Assembly: GCA_900551945.1 (NCBI GenBank)
Contig: URYE01000036.1
Span: 1 to 24,023, forward strand
From: an uncultured Eubacterium sp.
Lineage (GTDB): Bacteria > Bacillota > Clostridia > Lachnospirales > Lachnospiraceae
Length of the DNA: 24,023 bases
Reading direction: 5' to 3'
Below, in pieces: positions 9,421-21,752 of the stretch. Made by a program: the position numbers and the translations under genes. Each line of letters opens with the position of its first letter. Position 1 is the stretch's first letter. The notes beneath the pieces were generated by a model that searched no databases, had not been told where the DNA came from, and was given only the letters and a program-made list of their open reading frames with translations.

Positions 9421-9540
9421 TGTTAAATTTTATATCTGATTGATAAAACTAAGTATTTTAAGTTGTGTGGTAATCATTGGTTGTATACAGCATAATTAAG
9501 AGCTAATAAGTTTTTAACATATAATATAAAGTTTTTAATA
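9421..9540 (+). repeat. Degenerate third copy of the structured 3' element (junction missing)
   Basis: The right half (about 9485-9530) matches the right half of the copy at 19200-19423 at roughly 40 of 48 bases, including ACAGCA, TTAAGA and ATTTTTA-like blocks and CATATA. The left half (9437-9470) matches TGAT..ATAAAA..TAAGTA..TAAG.TGTG. The internal loop TGAT/ATAT is kept. Outer arms 9423-9427 with 9534-9538 and 9429-9435 with 9524-9530 pair but differ from the other copies. The central three-way junction is replaced by a short loop (about 9471-9484). It lies 8 bases after the first MATE stop codon. Confidence 0.72.
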
Positions 9541-9575: not shown

Positions 9576-10898
9576 ATGGCTAAGGATATGACGGAAGGCA
9601 GGATTACGCCTTTATTATTAGAATTTACAATACCACTTGTGTTAGGTAATTTATTTCAGCTTACATATAATGCGGCGGACTCGATAATTGTTGGTAAGTT
9701 TGTTGGGGCTGACGCATTAGCGGCGGTGGGAACGAGTAATCCTATTGTTACAATGGCTATTTTGTTTATAAATGGTTTGTGCATGGGTGCGTCGGTTATT
9801 ATGGGTAATCTTTTTGGAGCTAAGGATTATAAGACTTTGAAAAGAGAAATAAGTACAACTATGATTGCAGGTCTTATATTTTCGCTCGTATTTTCAGCAG
9901 TTTGTGTAATTGGTGCGCCATTGATATTTAATGTAATACATACGCCTGATGAGATTAAACCACTGGGAATTACTTATTTGAGAATTATATTTTGCGGTCA
10001 AGTGTTTACATTTATTTATAACTTTTATTCGTCAACATTAAGGGCTATGGGAGATAGTAAGAACCCGTTGTATTTTCTTATTTTAAGTAGTGTGTTAAAT
10101 GTTGTTGGTGATTTGTTCTTTGTTATATGTCTTAAATGGGATATAGCAGGCTGTGCTATAAGTACTGTGCTTAGTGAAGCCCTTTGTTGTATTTTCTGTG
10201 GCATATATATAAAGAAGAAAGTCAAGTTGTTATGTCTTGGAAAAGAGTGGTTTGTATTTGATAAGAGTCTTGTTAAAAAGACTATAAGTTATGGTTGGGT
10301 TACAGCGGTGCAACAAGCTATTATACCACTTGGTAAGGTGGTTATGCAGTCTATGGTTAATACTATGGGAACAAGCGCAATTGCGGCAATTGCGGCTGTA
10401 AATAGAATTGATGACTTTGCATATACACCACAGCAAAATATTGGTCATGCAACTACGGCATTTATGGCACAAAATGACGGTGCAAAGAAGATGGATAGAG
10501 TTAAAAAGGGCTTTAAGGAGGGTATGGTGCTTGAGATTATTTATGGCTTTGGGATTATGGCAGTCTGCTTTATATTTTCAAGACCTATTATGAGAATGTT
10601 TACTGACCATGAAGATGTTATTGCACAAGGAGTTACTTATCTTAAGTTAATTTCACTTATGTATGTAATGCCTGGTATTACTAATGGAATACAGGGATTT
10701 TTTAGGGGCATGGGTGAAATGAAGATTACTTTGCTTTCTAGTACAGTTAATATTGTTACTAGATGTATTGGAGCGGCTATTCTTATATTTGGCTTTGGTA
10801 TGAATATTGAAGCTGTTCCGTGGGGACAGTTTATTGGCTGGGTTTGTATGCTTATTGTAGAAGTTCCGATAATACTGAGATGGTGGAAGAAGTTGTAG
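9576..10898 (+). CDS. MATE-family efflux transporter (second of a tandem pair)
   Basis: 440 aa, about 12 membrane helices. The N-terminus M-T-E-G-R-I-T-P-L-L-L-E-F-T-I-P-L-V-L-G-N-L-F-Q-L-T-Y-N-A-A-D-S-I-I-V-G is typical of the family. It is clearly paralogous to the upstream gene but well diverged, so the pair is an old duplication or two independent members. Tandem MATE genes in some bacteria work as heteromers, but that is speculative here. AAAGGAA at 9562-9568 sets the ATG. The stop codon at 10896-10898 is followed after two bases by a full copy of the structured element, which forms the whole 3' region up to the convergent kinase gene. Confidence 0.92.
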   Translation: MAKDMTEGRITPLLLEFTIPLVLGNLFQLTYNAADSIIVGKFVGADALAAVGTSNPIVTMAILFINGLCMGASVIMGNLFGAKDYKTLKREISTTMIAGLIFSLVFSAVCVIGAPLIFNVIHTPDEIKPLGITYLRIIFCGQVFTFIYNFYSSTLRAMGDSKNPLYFLILSSVLNVVGDLFFVICLKWDIAGCAISTVLSEALCCIFCGIYIKKKVKLLCLGKEWFVFDKSLVKKTISYGWVTAVQQAIIPLGKVVMQSMVNTMGTSAIAAIAAVNRIDDFAYTPQQNIGHATTAFMAQNDGAKKMDRVKKGFKEGMVLEIIYGFGIMAVCFIFSRPIMRMFTDHEDVIAQGVTYLKLISLMYVMPGITNGIQGFFRGMGEMKITLLSSTVNIVTRCIGAAILIFGFGMNIEAVPWGQFIGWVCMLIVEVPIILRWWKKL

Positions 10899-10900
10899 GA

Positions 10901-11163
10901 AGAAATGTAATTGAGAAGGCAGTAAAAAAACAGGCGTGATATTTTATAGTTGATTAATCAAAGTTAAGTAGTTCTAAGATGTGCTAATTTATGTATTAAA
11001 AACGAACGTGAACGCAATCAATGTGACATCGTGTCACTGATTGCTTGCCCCGACGTCGTGTCGGGGCATCACTGTTTTTGGTATAGCACAACTAAGAACT
11101 ACTAAACTTTGACAATATACTATAAAATATCACACCTGTTTTTTACTTCTTATTTACATTTCT
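10901..11163 (+). repeat. Structured 3' element, full copy 1 (candidate ncRNA)
   Basis: One large imperfect inverted repeat filling the gap between convergent genes. Outer stem: 10921-10950 with 11119-11147 (one C-A mismatch, one extra A), extended by matching blocks at 10901-10910 and 11154-11163. Then an internal loop TGAT/ATAT and a middle stem at 10964-10985 with 11085-11106 carrying three A-A mismatches. A three-way junction closes with GTGA (11008-11011) and TCAC (11069-11072) and holds hairpin 1 at 11014-11044 (loop ATCGT) and hairpin 2 at 11047-11067 (loop GTCGT). Both strands end in T runs after the outer stem, so it could also terminate both genes. Confidence 0.85.
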
Positions 11164-11198: not shown

Positions 11199-12206
11199 TT
11201 AACGTTGTACTTCGTTGCCTGCTGTGGAGAAGGCTAGTTTGTTTACTTCGTCTACTGTTACTAGGTTGAAGTCACCGCTTACTGTGTGTTTTAAGCAGCT
11301 TGCGGCATTGGAGAATTCTACTGTCTTTTGTGGGTCGAAGTTGTTAATAAGACTGTAGATTATACCTGCGCAGTATGCGTCGCCTGCTCCGATGTAGTCA
11401 AGTATGTGCATAAAGTATTCTTTGCTGTAATAAGCCTTGCCTTCTGTGTATACCATAGATTGAAGCTTGAATGTTGTAATTGATGTTTCTGTTCTCCATA
11501 CAGAAGCTACCATTTTAAATGGGAACTTTTTAAGAAGTTCCTTTGCTATGTACTGGTTCTTTTCTTCATCGCCCGCATTAGCTGGGTCGATTTCAAATAT
11601 TCCTACTGCATCATCTTCATTTGCAATACAAATATCAACATAAGGGCAAATCTTTGACATAACTTCGTTCGCCTTAGCACTTGACCAGAGCTTACCTCTG
11701 TAATTAAGGTCACAGCTTACTGTCATTCCCTTTTCATGTGCTTTTTTACAAGCTTCAATGCAGATTTCGGCAAGTTCATCACTCAATGCAGGAGTAATTC
11801 CTGAAAAATGAAACCAAGTAGCACCGTCAAATATGTCGTCCCAGTCAAAGTCGCTTCTAGTAGCAAGAGCCATAGCAGAACCTGTTCTATTATAAATTAC
11901 ATTAGAAGGACGTTGGCTAGTCTTCTTTTCAAGAAAGTAAATACCAATTTCTTCTCCACCACGCACAATCTTACTTGTATCTACACCATATTGACGTACA
12001 GAGTTAATAGCACTCTGACCAATAGTGTGTGCGGGAAGTTTAGTTACATATCTACAGTCAACGCCAAAGTTAGCAAGTGATACGGCAGTATTGGCTTCAC
12101 CGCCACCGTAAACTGCTTCAAAAGCATGACATTGAGTAAATCGTTCGTTGTTTTCAGGAGAAAGTCTTAACATTATTTCTCCAAAAGTAATAATTTTGTC
12201 CTTCAT
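11199..12206 (-). CDS. PfkB-family sugar kinase, probable 2-keto-3-deoxygluconate kinase
   Basis: 335 aa ribokinase-fold enzyme. G-G-G-E-A-N-T at 34-40 is the substrate-binding signature seen in KDG kinases, and D-Y-I-G-A-G-D-A-Y-C-A-G carries the anion hole and catalytic base Asp276. Expected reaction: ATP-dependent phosphorylation of 2-keto-3-deoxygluconate to KDPG in the cytosol, in uronate or pectin catabolism. Fructokinase or another sugar kinase cannot be excluded. GAGG is placed 7 bases before the ATG (minus strand). The gene stands alone, with no KDPG aldolase or uronate isomerase in view. A 20-base palindrome overlaps its promoter, which suggests repression by a sugar-responsive regulator encoded elsewhere. 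Confidence 0.85.
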   Translation of the reverse strand: MKDKIITFGEIMLRLSPENNERFTQCHAFEAVYGGGEANTAVSLANFGVDCRYVTKLPAHTIGQSAINSVRQYGVDTSKIVRGGEEIGIYFLEKKTSQRPSNVIYNRTGSAMALATRSDFDWDDIFDGATWFHFSGITPALSDELAEICIEACKKAHEKGMTVSCDLNYRGKLWSSAKANEVMSKICPYVDICIANEDDAVGIFEIDPANAGDEEKNQYIAKELLKKFPFKMVASVWRTETSITTFKLQSMVYTEGKAYYSKEYFMHILDYIGAGDAYCAGIIYSLINNFDPQKTVEFSNAASCLKHTVSGDFNLVTVDEVNKLAFSTAGNEVQR

Positions 12207-17889: not shown

Positions 17890-19188
17890 ATGGCTAATCA
17901 AAAGGAAAAAGAAAAAAAGAAAATGGGATTATCAACGCAGATATTTATTGCGTTGTTATTAGGAGCTGTTTCGGGAGTGCTTATACATTATTATATGCCT
18001 GATAGTTCATTTAAAAATGACATTTTAATGAATGGTATATTGTATGTTATAGGTAATGGTTTTATAAGACTTATGCAAATGCTTGTAGTACCACTTGTTT
18101 TCTGTTCGCTTGTATGCGGAAGTATGGCAATTGGTGATACTAAGACACTTGGAAAGGTTGGCGTTAAGACTATACTTTTCTATATATTGACAACAGCACT
18201 TGCGATATCATTAGCACTTGGGGTTGCGTCACTTATTAACCCTGGTGTTGGTATGGATATTACAGTGGAAGAAGGCACAACAACGGCAGCAGCAACAACA
18301 GCTAGTATTAATTTTGCTGACACATTACTTAATATGATACCGAAAAATATTTTCTCATCTCTTGCAGAAGGTGATATGCTTCCTGTAATCGTATTTGCAC
18401 TTTTTGTTGGTATTATGCTTGCAAAGCTTGGAAATAAAGCATCTACTGTTGCTAATTTCTTTAGTCAGTTTAATGATGTTATGATGGAAATGACTATGTC
18501 TATTATGAAGGTTGCACCTATTGGTGTGTTCTGCCTTATAGCAAAGACATTTGCAGGTATTGGTTTTGACGCATTTTTACCAATGCTTAAGTATATGCTT
18601 AGTGTAATTCTTACACTTGCACTTCAGTGCTTTGGTGTATATCAATTATTATTATTTATATTTACAAGATTAAATCCATTTAAGTTTGTAAAGAAGTTTT
18701 TCCCAGTTATGGCATTTGCATTTTCAACATCTACATCTAATGCAACTATACCTATGTCAGTTGATACTTTAAGTAAGAAGATTGGTGTATCTAAGAGAAT
18801 TTCTTCTTTTACAATACCACTTGGCGCTACAATTAACATGGACGGTACATCTATTATGCAGGGTGTTGCTGTTGTGTTTATAGCACAGGCTTATGGAATG
18901 ACTCTTACACCATCAGCTATTCTTACTGTTATTGCAACAGCGACTATTGCTTCAATTGGTACAGCGGGTGTTCCTAGTGTTGGTCTTGTAACTCTTTCAA
19001 TGGTACTTTCATCAGTAGGACTTCCTACAGAAGGTATTGCTTTGATTATGGGTATTGATAGAATACTTGATATGCTTCGTACTGCGGTAAATATTACAGG
19101 TGATGCAGTATGTACAACTATTATTGCTAAACTTGAAGGGGCTTTCAATAAGGAAATTTTTGATAAAGATTTTAAGGAAGAAGCATAA
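17890..19188 (+). CDS. DAACS-family glutamate/aspartate or dicarboxylate symporter (canonical)
   Basis: 432 aa membrane protein with all hallmarks of the GltP/GltT group: T-S-T-S-N-A-T-I-P in the first hairpin, N-M-D-G-T at 316-320 in helix 7, the second hairpin A-G-V-P-S-V-G, and N-I-T-G-D-A in helix 8. It imports acidic amino acids or C4-dicarboxylates with Na+ or H+. It is more canonical than the member at 6156, so the two probably have different substrates. GGAGG at 17879-17883 serves the ATG at 17890. An out-of-frame ATG at 17886 (Met-Asn-Gly-stop) lies only two bases from the ribosome site and is unlikely to be used. The stop codon is followed after 11 bases by a full copy of the structured element. 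Confidence 0.93.
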   Translation: MANQKEKEKKKMGLSTQIFIALLLGAVSGVLIHYYMPDSSFKNDILMNGILYVIGNGFIRLMQMLVVPLVFCSLVCGSMAIGDTKTLGKVGVKTILFYILTTALAISLALGVASLINPGVGMDITVEEGTTTAAATTASINFADTLLNMIPKNIFSSLAEGDMLPVIVFALFVGIMLAKLGNKASTVANFFSQFNDVMMEMTMSIMKVAPIGVFCLIAKTFAGIGFDAFLPMLKYMLSVILTLALQCFGVYQLLLFIFTRLNPFKFVKKFFPVMAFAFSTSTSNATIPMSVDTLSKKIGVSKRISSFTIPLGATINMDGTSIMQGVAVVFIAQAYGMTLTPSAILTVIATATIASIGTAGVPSVGLVTLSMVLSSVGLPTEGIALIMGIDRILDMLRTAVNITGDAVCTTIIAKLEGAFNKEIFDKDFKEEA

Positions 19189-19199
19189 ATGTTGTGTAC

Positions 19200-19423
19200 A
19201 AAGAAAAAAGAGTTTTAGTTTTTTAGTTGATGGATAAAAATTAAGTAGTTCTAAGATGTGCTGATATAGGGATTGAAACCTGACGTGAACGCACTCAATG
19301 CGACATCGTGTCGCTGAGTGCTTGACTGCACCTCCTTGTGTAGTCATCACTGGATTTATACAGCACAACTAAGAACTACTAAATTTTTACCATATACTAA
19401 AAAACTAAAACTCTTTTTTCTTT
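19200..19423 (+). repeat. Structured 3' element, full copy 2 (candidate ncRNA)
   Basis: Same architecture as the copy at 10901-11163. Outer stem: perfect 28-bp arms at 19200-19227 and 19396-19423, unrelated in sequence to copy 1. Internal loop TGAT/ATAT. Middle stem at 19241-19262 with 19362-19383, identical to copy 1 with the same three A-A mismatches. The three-way junction closes with GTGA (19285-19288) and TCAC (19347-19350), with hairpin 1 at 19291-19321 (loop ATCGT) and hairpin 2 at 19324-19345 (loop CTCCTT). It lies between convergent genes. The remainder of 19424-19546 is AT-rich without a gene. Confidence 0.85.
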
Positions 19424-19587: not shown

Positions 19588-21696
19588 TTAATTAGTTGGA
19601 GTGATGTTGAGTTTGTCTTCAACGTATTTCATAATCTTTATATTGTCTTCTGGCATTTGGCAGCCTACTATGTATGAGCCTTCGTTGTTGGAGCTTCTTA
19701 TAATTCTTCCTTCAAGTTCAACACCTTTTGCAGGTTCAAAGTTTTCTATAGAGAGTGTTATAATCTTACCTTTGCTGTCTGTAAAGAAATCGTCTTTTGA
19801 AATAAATGCGTAGCCATTTGCGCATATATTATCAAGTTTTCCTTTGAACTTCTGACCAGTTGCTTTAATAGTAATAGTACAAGGATTAGTTACATCTAAT
19901 CTAGGATACTTTCTTCTGTTAAGGATAGTAGGTTTAGAATTAACTGTTACAACAAAATCTTGTGAGTTTTGAGAAGTGTCAGTTTTTATAATAGCTTCAT
20001 TCCAACAGTATAACACATTTCCAACAGTAAATTTAATTGTACATGATGTAGGCTTTTTGATTTCTGGCGTATTGTTAAATCTAATTATCATATTGTCGTC
20101 TGAACGGTTTAAAAGTGAACCATTGTAGTCTTTTGCTACATTGTCTTGATTAATAGTAGCAGTAACTTTTGTTCCTGGCTTTAAATCTGAGATACCCATA
20201 AAACCACCAACACCAAGCTCACACATAAGACCTTCGATAATCTTTTCTATGTTGTTAATATTGGCAGAGCTTTCATCATATTTACTAACCATTTTCTTGC
20301 TTATATCATCAGATGTGTCAATGCGCTGTGTCATAGTATTAACAATGTCAGATACTTGCTCCATATTGTTGACAAGTTGTTGATTAGAGATTTCCACTTC
20401 TTTAATAGCAGTATCAATAACTTCAATATGTTGCTTTAATTCACCTGAGTCTTCTGTAATCTTGCTTACATTGTCACCAGTTTGTGTAACTTTATCAAGT
20501 GTGATTTGAATAAGCTTTAATTCTTCTCTAATAGAATTAGTCATATTATCAGAAGTTTCTTGAAGTCTTACAAGAGCATCTCTTATTTGTGCTGATGAAG
20601 CCTGTGTTTCAGTACTTAATGCTCGAATTTGTTCAGCTACAACTGCAAAGCCACGACCTGCATCACCAGCTCTTGCGGCTTCTATAGAAGCATTAAGGGC
20701 AAGTAAGTTAGTTTGGCTTGAAATACTGTCGATTGTTCCAGTTTCTTTTTTAACAGTTTCAAATTCAGACTTAAATTCAGTAAGAATATTTTCAACCTCA
20801 ATAGAAAGTTCTGACATTGAATTAGCTGTAGTAACAAGGCTTTGAAGGTCAACGGAACTTTCAGTTGCGTGATTTAATGACTCAGTTGTTAATGTAACCA
20901 TGTTGTTAATAAGTGAAACAACATTTTGCACCTGTGAATTAATATCAGTAGTCATATCCATAGATGAAGATGTATGAGATTGCAATTGAAGACTGTTATC
21001 AATAAGCAAATTCATATCTTCTACAACTTCATCAGAACCATGTTTATTTTCAGCGGCAAGTTCACGAACAACAGTGATACCCTCCATAATTGTATTACTA
21101 GCTGTCTTTACTTGTGCTACTGTTTGAGTAACTCTTTTTAGGTCAGCTTTTATGCTGGCAGTTAATGCACCATCTGACTCCGTAAGGTGCTTAATTGAAA
21201 GCACATAACAAATATAACAAAGTATTATACATGAAAATTGGAGCTGATAGTTTTTTATATCATCAGCGGAATTTGCTTGAAGTACAAGCAAATGGTATAC
21301 AACACTAATAGCAATACTAACACCATTAGTTATACCATAATAAATCATAAACTTTCTGTCTTTATAGATAACAAAAAGGCTTGTAACTGGAAGTATGTAT
21401 GTAAACGCAATAGGAGAAGCAGTTGTACATAATACAAAGGTGTAAAATATTCCATATCCCGCAGCGATTATATATTTGTAAAGTTTTGTTGATTTGCCTT
21501 TTGTACGAAGTATAATGTCACCAATAAAGAAAGGTATCCAACATAATGCAAGAAATACAAGATATGACGATGTAGGATAAAGTCCCTTAGGTACATCAGA
21601 GCCGTAATTGGCAGATAGAAGAAGTGCAAATGCTAACCATATTCTTCTAGCTTTTATATTAGCTTTTTCTTTAAAAAGATTTTCATCATAGTTCAT
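19588..21696 (-). CDS. Methyl-accepting chemoreceptor fused to a YcgR-like PilZ module
   Basis: 702 aa from the ATG at 21696, chosen because GAGG lies 7 bases upstream; the in-frame ATG at 21717 has no good site. Residues about 18-175 hold roughly six membrane helices with little outside the membrane, so the signal may be membrane-borne or internal. No HAMP domain is obvious. A long coiled coil follows, whose tip [17 protein letters not shown] (about 325-345) is the conserved CheA/CheW-contact hairpin. After it, about 497-590 resembles the N-terminal domain of YcgR flagellar-brake proteins. Then comes a PilZ domain with R-K-Y-P-R near 594 and D-N-I-C-A-N-G near 622. The PilZ motif normally reads (D/N)xSxxG; Ser is replaced by Cys here. 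Likely role: linking c-di-GMP to chemotaxis signalling. It is probably transcribed with the upstream esterase gene (56-base gap). Confidence 0.9.
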
Positions 21697-21752
21697 AGTA
21701 TCCTCATTTCTAAGCATAGGTATTTCACTTTTAGATGCTTGTAAGTAGTGTA

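Follow-up and report, generated by a model that had tools for sequence, protein, structure and literature searches.

The repeat in the window (the whole stretch of 24,023 nucleotides analysed here, from an uncultured Eubacterium sp. of the Lachnospiraceae) is a known orphan RNA family, TwoAYGGAY (Rfam RF01731), and not a new one. It is present as two intact copies, W1 (10901-11163) and W2 (19200-19423), and one remnant, W3 (9463-9530), giving three copies within 24 kb. We put the probability at roughly two in three that all three are copies of the TwoAYGGAY repeat, that transposases spread this repeat with an apex RNA most likely directed at CsrA, and that the insertions in the window are old. 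Under this explanation, IS1182-like transposases would spread the repeat in trans, and it would settle mainly in intergenic gaps, with convergent gene ends preferred. The apex would be kept as the part whose conserved-strand transcript forms a two-hairpin RNA with ANGGAN loops that bind a protein, most likely CsrA, and the arms may protect the transcript or end transcription. W1 and W2 would be old insertions with transposon ends decayed or replaced, their A/T-rich hairpins probably helping to end transcription from both sides between convergent genes.

The window copies and their family

A cmscan search against Rfam 15 matches both intact copies to RF01731 on the minus strand over the full model. 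The conserved cores (model positions 1-168) lie at 10953-11117 in W1 (115.9 bits, E 1.5e-20) and at 19230-19394 in W2 (112.7 bits, E 8e-20), against a gathering score of 43, and the repeat is therefore not undescribed. An earlier note on this DNA had proposed an undescribed RNA family with no matching name, to be checked against Rfam; that check returned RF01731 across the whole model and, with nothing in favour of the proposal except the structure itself, we reject it as having practically no chance of being right.

Inspection and folding of both copies bear out that they lie where the note had placed them and are alike in fold. Either strand of W1 and W2 folds into one long hairpin carrying two apical hairpins, with minimum free energies of -116.1 and -99.6 kcal/mol on the minus strand and -122.4 and -105.7 kcal/mol on the plus strand, respectively, and the stem, asymmetric internal loop and two apical hairpins are common to RF01731. 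The middle stem is the same in both copies, as had been described, with three shared mismatches (A-A on the plus strand, U-U on the minus). On the minus strand, hairpin 1 occupies 11046-11068 in W1 (loop ACGAC, without GGA) and 19323-19346 in W2 (loop AAGGAG, with the sole GGA among the four loops), while hairpin 2 occupies 11014-11044 in W1 (ACGAU, without GGA) and 19291-19321 in W2 (ACGAU). Thus the AYGGAY loop of the family is absent from all four window loops. Because the ACGA loop is present too in other high-scoring RF01731 members (for example L027, L046 and L047), W1 and W2 are assigned by Rfam score and not by loop. In these loci and in the window, the shorter ACGA loop repeatedly takes the place of the GGA loop, in one hairpin or in both. 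Since one genome (G245) has ACGA in hairpin 1 of all six copies fetched, ACGA looks like a loop variant in its own right and not like a product of decay.

The remnant W3, absent from the earlier note, is a degenerate 68-nt piece on the minus strand, about one third of the element, between two MATE genes. It is 81% identical to 19336-19403 in an ungapped local alignment and has no Rfam match at E <= 1. W1 lies between the convergent genes for a MATE transporter (9576-10898, plus strand; Pfam PF01554), which ends just ahead of it, and a PfkB-family carbohydrate kinase (11199-12206, minus strand; PF00294), whose stop is 35 bp past it. W2 lies likewise between convergent genes, one for a sodium:dicarboxylate symporter (SDF; 17890-19188, plus strand; PF00375) that ends just ahead of it and one for an MCP-PilZ chemotaxis protein (19588-21717, minus strand; PF00015, PF07238) with its stop 164 bp past it. 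The window hairpins measure 223-263 bp and hold no transposase gene; the sole ORF of at least 80 aa that overlaps a copy (19012-19368, minus strand, 118 aa) runs for about half its length antisense to the SDF gene. Elsewhere in the window, at 678-1337, a rhodanese domain is split by about 100 Asn-rich low-complexity residues.

A table row in the 2010 discovery paper rates TwoAYGGAY as a probable RNA that is probably neither cis-regulatory nor a riboswitch (PMC2864571); the Rfam type given to RF01731 is cis-regulatory. A motif paper proposes the family as CsrA-binding sRNAs in Clostridia (PMC4333381), Rfam 15 reports two more covarying pairs after an R-scape update (PMC11701678), a structure-update paper also covers it (PMC7657543), a stability analysis terms it relatively unexplored (PMC11661157), and it appears elsewhere as a list entry (PMC7682815). 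The listings and passages that our literature search covered hold nothing on mobility of the family or on MITEs (miniature inverted-repeat transposable elements) carrying it, and no tested function since 2010.

Pairing in the core and in the outer arms

Compensated changes had been reported outside the middle stem and in the hairpin that the earlier note, reading the plus strand, called hairpin 1 (hairpin 2 on the Rfam strand), and the folds, the alignment and inspection by eye agree that pairing is retained there. The same holds in a larger alignment of 33 cores, made of W1, W2 and one core from each of 31 other genomes. Across 36 consensus pairs, 89.8% of 1,172 cells pair, compared with 60.7% in shuffles; none of 500 shuffles reaches 89.8%, and sliding by 1-3 columns lowers pairing to 38-49%. 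A two-sided change is seen in at least one sequence at 35 of the 36 pairs. Covariation is far beyond these shuffled and slid controls, which do not remove phylogeny.

The outer arms of W1 (10901-10951 with 11116-11163, the former beginning 2 nt from the MATE stop codon) and of W2 (19200-19229 with 19395-19423, the former 11 nt from the SDF stop codon) had been called unrelated in sequence yet paired, a fair description on both counts. The similarity between the 27-nt 5′ arms of W1 and W2 is matched by 19% of 2,000 shuffles. Within copies, all 28 positions of W2 that precede the internal loop pair, and W1 matches at 42 positions, interrupted by three mismatches and by two gaps, one of 4 nt and one of 1 nt. 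Among relatives, a permissive anchored extension of 147 copies traced arm pairing for at least 25 nt past the 168-nt core in 137 of them and for at least 100 nt in 30; some of the ten short copies end at a contig end. The longest hairpins reach about 560 bp in one genome (G308) and 540-710 bp in another (G071), and 20 copies from seven genomes of the class sample fold at -107.6 to -166.0 kcal/mol over approximately 340-360 nt (the core plus 100 nt on either side).

There are two possible sources of arms that are unrelated yet pair: selection may act on their structure, or one arm of the palindrome may be repaired from the other. In 129 copies, the stretch from 12 to 45 nt outside the core pairs at 0.74 within a copy, as against 0.48 between arms of different copies. 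As core identity declines from above 0.90 to 0.55-0.65, the identity of arms from the same genome drops from 0.85 to 0.49, the random level, while pairing within copies stays steady at 0.72-0.76. Falling arm identity with steady pairing is the pattern that had been seen in W1 and W2. It would suit template-switch repair, in which arm is copied onto arm of a long palindrome and compensation of the arms owes nothing to RNA-structure selection, as well as it would suit selection on structure, and we regard the chance of the repair explanation as only somewhat below even. Against it, W1 and W2 have the three core mismatches in common, and conservation extends to unpaired residues that are strand-specific. 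For these two reasons the core, at least, is under sequence selection; maintenance of the palindrome may account for part of the covariation in the arms of RF01731. A further source of unrelated arms that was considered, terminator hairpins already in place into which the core would have inserted, is not needed, since arm identity declines gradually with core divergence while pairing stays.

Mobility and spread in related genomes

At E <= 0.001, at least 65 of the 397 genomes in the family of G002 have RF01731, 63 of them over the cut-off, as do at least 28 of 291 in the class (20 over the cut-off); these counts are lower bounds because 6 or 9 candidates were scored per genome. Copy number ranges from 0 upwards across genomes: full searches of eight positive genomes returned 8, 5, 3, 15, 7, 13, 25 and 6 matches, and two of five genomes with a relative of the window's MCP gene have RF01731, with 13 and 3 matches. 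In relatives, RF01731 forms the tip of a palindromic repeat that is dispersed in multiple copies. W1 has no match in the plasmid collection, and a G180 element has none in the plasmid and phage collections. In G308, four inverted TwoAYGGAY pairs (L077, L078, L080, L081) enclose stretches of approximately 0.9-1.35 kb that hold no long ORFs; some 0.4-0.7 kb of this DNA is repeated between loci at roughly 88-96% identity, and these gaps hold no further Rfam family at the gathering threshold. Composite cassettes flanking genes, a possibility raised by the close inverted pairs, are rejected for these four G308 pairs, as their gaps hold repeated DNA and no long ORFs.

In one lineage group the repeat is a MITE, with terminal inverted repeats (TIRs) GATTMGGGTGTCAAAA and 7-bp target duplications. 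Listed pairs among six G180 copies at unrelated loci are 89-96% identical over 306-341 bp and have common ends, the inverted repeats GATTMGGGTGTCAAAA / TTTTGACACCCKAATC. The TIR pattern is hit 66 times in G180, 15 in G127, 24 in G362 and 34 in G047, against 6, 2, 3 and 4 hits of the reversed control pattern. Identical 7-bp flanks are found in 17 of 47 distinct TIR pairs, and flanks that agree at 6 or more of the 7 positions in 24 (3.3 with at least 6/7 expected by permutation). Among 33 full-length TIR elements, a perfect 7-bp duplication is found in 12 and at least 6/7 in 18 (1.9 expected), and when the commonest targets CTATAAG/CTTATAG are left out, 7/7 flanks occur in 11 of 35 and at least 6/7 in 15 of 35 (1.2 expected). 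The duplications include TTTTAAA, CTACTAT, CTATGAT, TTAATAA, TGTATAG and CGTATAG. At one G180 insertion (G180:C13:56850), the congeners G710 and G697 keep both flanking genes with RF01731 missing between them, an empty site; at a second G180 site, the congener G689 has an RF01731 copy at the matching place.

RF01731 lies inside all 15 full-length TIR elements newly tested and in none of five short ones. Derivatives without the apex arose by internal deletion, and an identical deletion can recur at several sites; examples are a 106-bp form at three sites and a 159-bp form at two. These derivatives retain TIRs and, in many cases, duplications. The apex is therefore probably not needed for movement and, as derivatives without it spread too, is probably kept for another reason; the two-hairpin apex is conserved on one strand across the class even though such derivatives spread. 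Of 134 sampled copies from 23 sources, only 15, spread over 6 sources, have the TIR (TIR-A) at either end, which leaves most copies and lineages, the window's among them, without defined ends.

Several G180 copies adjoin other small repeated hairpins. By eye, four G180 gaps (L236, L239, L240, L241) are mosaics of other small repeated palindromes, among them a hairpin of about 60 bp, CTTATAGGAAA...TTTCCTATAAG, and a TCCTAAGGGG...CCTTAGGA unit, and in all four the TwoAYGGAY MITE or a derivative borders the CTTATAGGAAA...TTTCCTATAAG hairpin. At a site empty of TwoAYGGAY in G710 (L290:1804-2043), a different hairpin, CACAGGGGCTG...CAGCCCCTGTG, lies by eye directly at the same CTTTTAAAG target.

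A candidate autonomous partner comes from G688, of the same genus as G180, which has three identical 1,863-bp insertion sequences with ends as in the G180 MITE and perfect 7-bp duplications (TGCATAA, CTATTTT, CTACTGG). The encoded 538-aa protein has DUF772 and DDE_Tnp_1_6 domains; among NCBIfam models it fits the IS1182 family transposase best, scoring 126.2 bits against an equivalog cut-off of 270, and since the match falls under the cut-off we call it IS1182-like. Because ends and duplication length are common to this insertion sequence and the MITE, the transposase would be expected to move the G180-type repeat in trans, a proposal that joins two genomes of one genus, with the insertion sequence documented in G688 and the RF01731 MITEs in G180. 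No autonomous partner was found in G180 itself around 20 more single-TIR places or in a 4.3-kb TIR pair at C1, which encloses ordinary-looking genes. Other end types exist. In a distant genome (G436), six near-identical copies fetched from one 3.14-Mb contig have ends like CTGYRATTCGTAATAT, with flanking direct repeats of 8-10 bp seen by eye in four of the six (ATCATATAA, ATCCATAA, TTTTGCAT, GTACATAAAA); with up to 3 mismatches allowed, this end pattern is hit 54 times and its reverse twice. No TIR pair of 0.7-3 kb was seen as a partner for G436-type ends. Copies in G002 have, by eye, common ends of yet another kind.

At the window copies, TIR-A was not found on both sides of W1 or W2 (at 5 mismatches one side of W1 matches), nor was a direct repeat seen by eye at the hairpin ends as a target-site duplication. 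As TIR and duplication were sought there and not found, W1 and W2 are filed under RF01731 and not as MITEs; they probably work like, and descend from, a MITE. They may be insertions that are old and have become domesticated between their convergent genes, with a possible role as terminators in both directions. The earlier suggestion of a functional ncRNA or a hairpin-dependent mobile repeat is thus right in part, in that TIRs and target duplications make relatives mobile and covariation exceeds its controls; its claim to a new family falls.

We offer a broader and more tentative reading, which we consider rather less probable than its negation: TwoAYGGAY would be the payload of several long-palindrome MITE families moved by IS1182-like and other transposases in Clostridia, with the window copies as domesticated descendants. 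If so, these elements would carry a selected, strand-specific RNA with twin GGA loops, each jump would plant a candidate protein-binding (probably CsrA) RNA module beside another host gene, and transposition would serve to rewire, or to buffer, a global RNA regulator. An unexplained orphan RNA is recast as mobile DNA, with MITE carriage in at least one lineage together with a matching insertion sequence, and its presence on MITEs explains the patchy distribution and high copy number of RF01731.

CsrA, gene context and known systems

The loops bear on what the apex might be kept for. In 109 parsed cores, GGA is in the loop of 188 of 218 hairpins versus 2 of 218 read on the opposite strand; the parser kept these 109 out of 185 cores and dropped 76, of which 75 had fewer than two hairpins and one was too short. 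AYGGAY fits the ANGGAN hexaloop of CsrA/RsmE ligands, the SELEX core ACARGGATGT is in 9 parsed hairpins, and the RF01731 hairpin stems of 9-10 bp are longer than those of most SELEX ligands (PMC7652899). By eye, csrA is present in 62 of 65 RF01731 genomes versus 148 of 332 others in the family sample (Fisher p 4e-16); in the class sample, whose 28 positives include 8 under the Rfam cut-off, the figures are 24 of 28 versus 71 of 263 (p 1.5e-9). Flagellin, also by eye, is present in 64 of 65 RF01731 genomes versus 149 of 332 others. As this association is equally strong, csrA is inseparable from motility or ancestry, and co-occurrence is not accepted as proof of CsrA dependence. Six CsrA-family matches were found in G353; the other genomes listed have one to three.

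One alternative is that the element is a host-owned sRNA or 3′UTR element that sequesters CsrA, multiplied by ordinary duplication and only incidentally mobile. The hexaloop, the SELEX core, both csrA counts and the proposal published for TwoAYGGAY in the motif paper (PMC4333381) would all suit it. We nevertheless judge it unlikely, at perhaps one chance in a handful or slightly better: TIRs, target duplications and apex-less movers are those of a transposon, the csrA counts are confounded with motility and shared ancestry, and most loops are kept in genomes without detected csrA (GGA in 14 of 16 parsed hairpins at each position, several of the assemblies being fragmented). Several ANGGA loops were not found in the window, where three of the four loops are without GGA.

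Gene context was scored for 124 placed copies, W1 and W2 included: convergent gaps hold 40 of them, codirectional gaps 64 and divergent gaps 20. Element-free control gaps of 120-1500 bp at the same loci (n=94) are convergent in 8 cases, codirectional in 57 and divergent in 29, so that convergent gaps are enriched (40/124 vs 8/94, Fisher p 3e-5, paired copies not being independent). A further 10 of 134 copies could not be placed between a pair of ORFs and were dropped. Since any ORF that overlaps the element was left out of the count, the 'between genes' position is in part a product of the method; the core is covered by an ORF of at least 150 aa in 11 of 134 copies (at least 200 aa in 5), for which insertion into genes is possible. 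This enrichment, the position of both W1 and W2 between convergent gene ends and their outer arms, A-rich 5′ and T-rich 3′, are what would be expected of bidirectional terminators of two convergent gene pairs that share an ancestral core by chance. That explanation is improbable, however, as 84 of the 124 placed copies are in codirectional or divergent gaps, and 28-42 paired arm positions with a conserved 165-nt core exceed the needs of a terminator. Moreover, a terminator scan at the two copies calls solely the inner hairpin 11046-11068, on the plus strand, the A/T-tracts being at the outer stems.

The repeat resembles several known systems in part. Compared with RF01731 as modelled in Rfam at 168 nt, the present hairpins reach far past both model ends. 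CsrB/RsmY-type sRNAs that sequester CsrA share paired hairpins with ANGGAN loops in most parsed relatives, but RF01731 has just two candidate sites, long stems and a dispersed, palindromic arrangement, and most window loops are without GGA. REP/BIME elements are extragenic palindromes linked to RAYT; they resemble the present repeats as dispersed intergenic hairpins that sometimes form inverted pairs, and differ in that a DDE transposase and target duplications are found here. The likeness to an IS1182-linked MITE is seen in relatives, which are short and non-coding, have TIRs as in an autonomous insertion sequence, 7-bp target duplications and internal-deletion derivatives. Unlike such a MITE, W1 and W2 have no recognisable TIR or duplication, and the present elements bear a deeply conserved, structured RNA apex.
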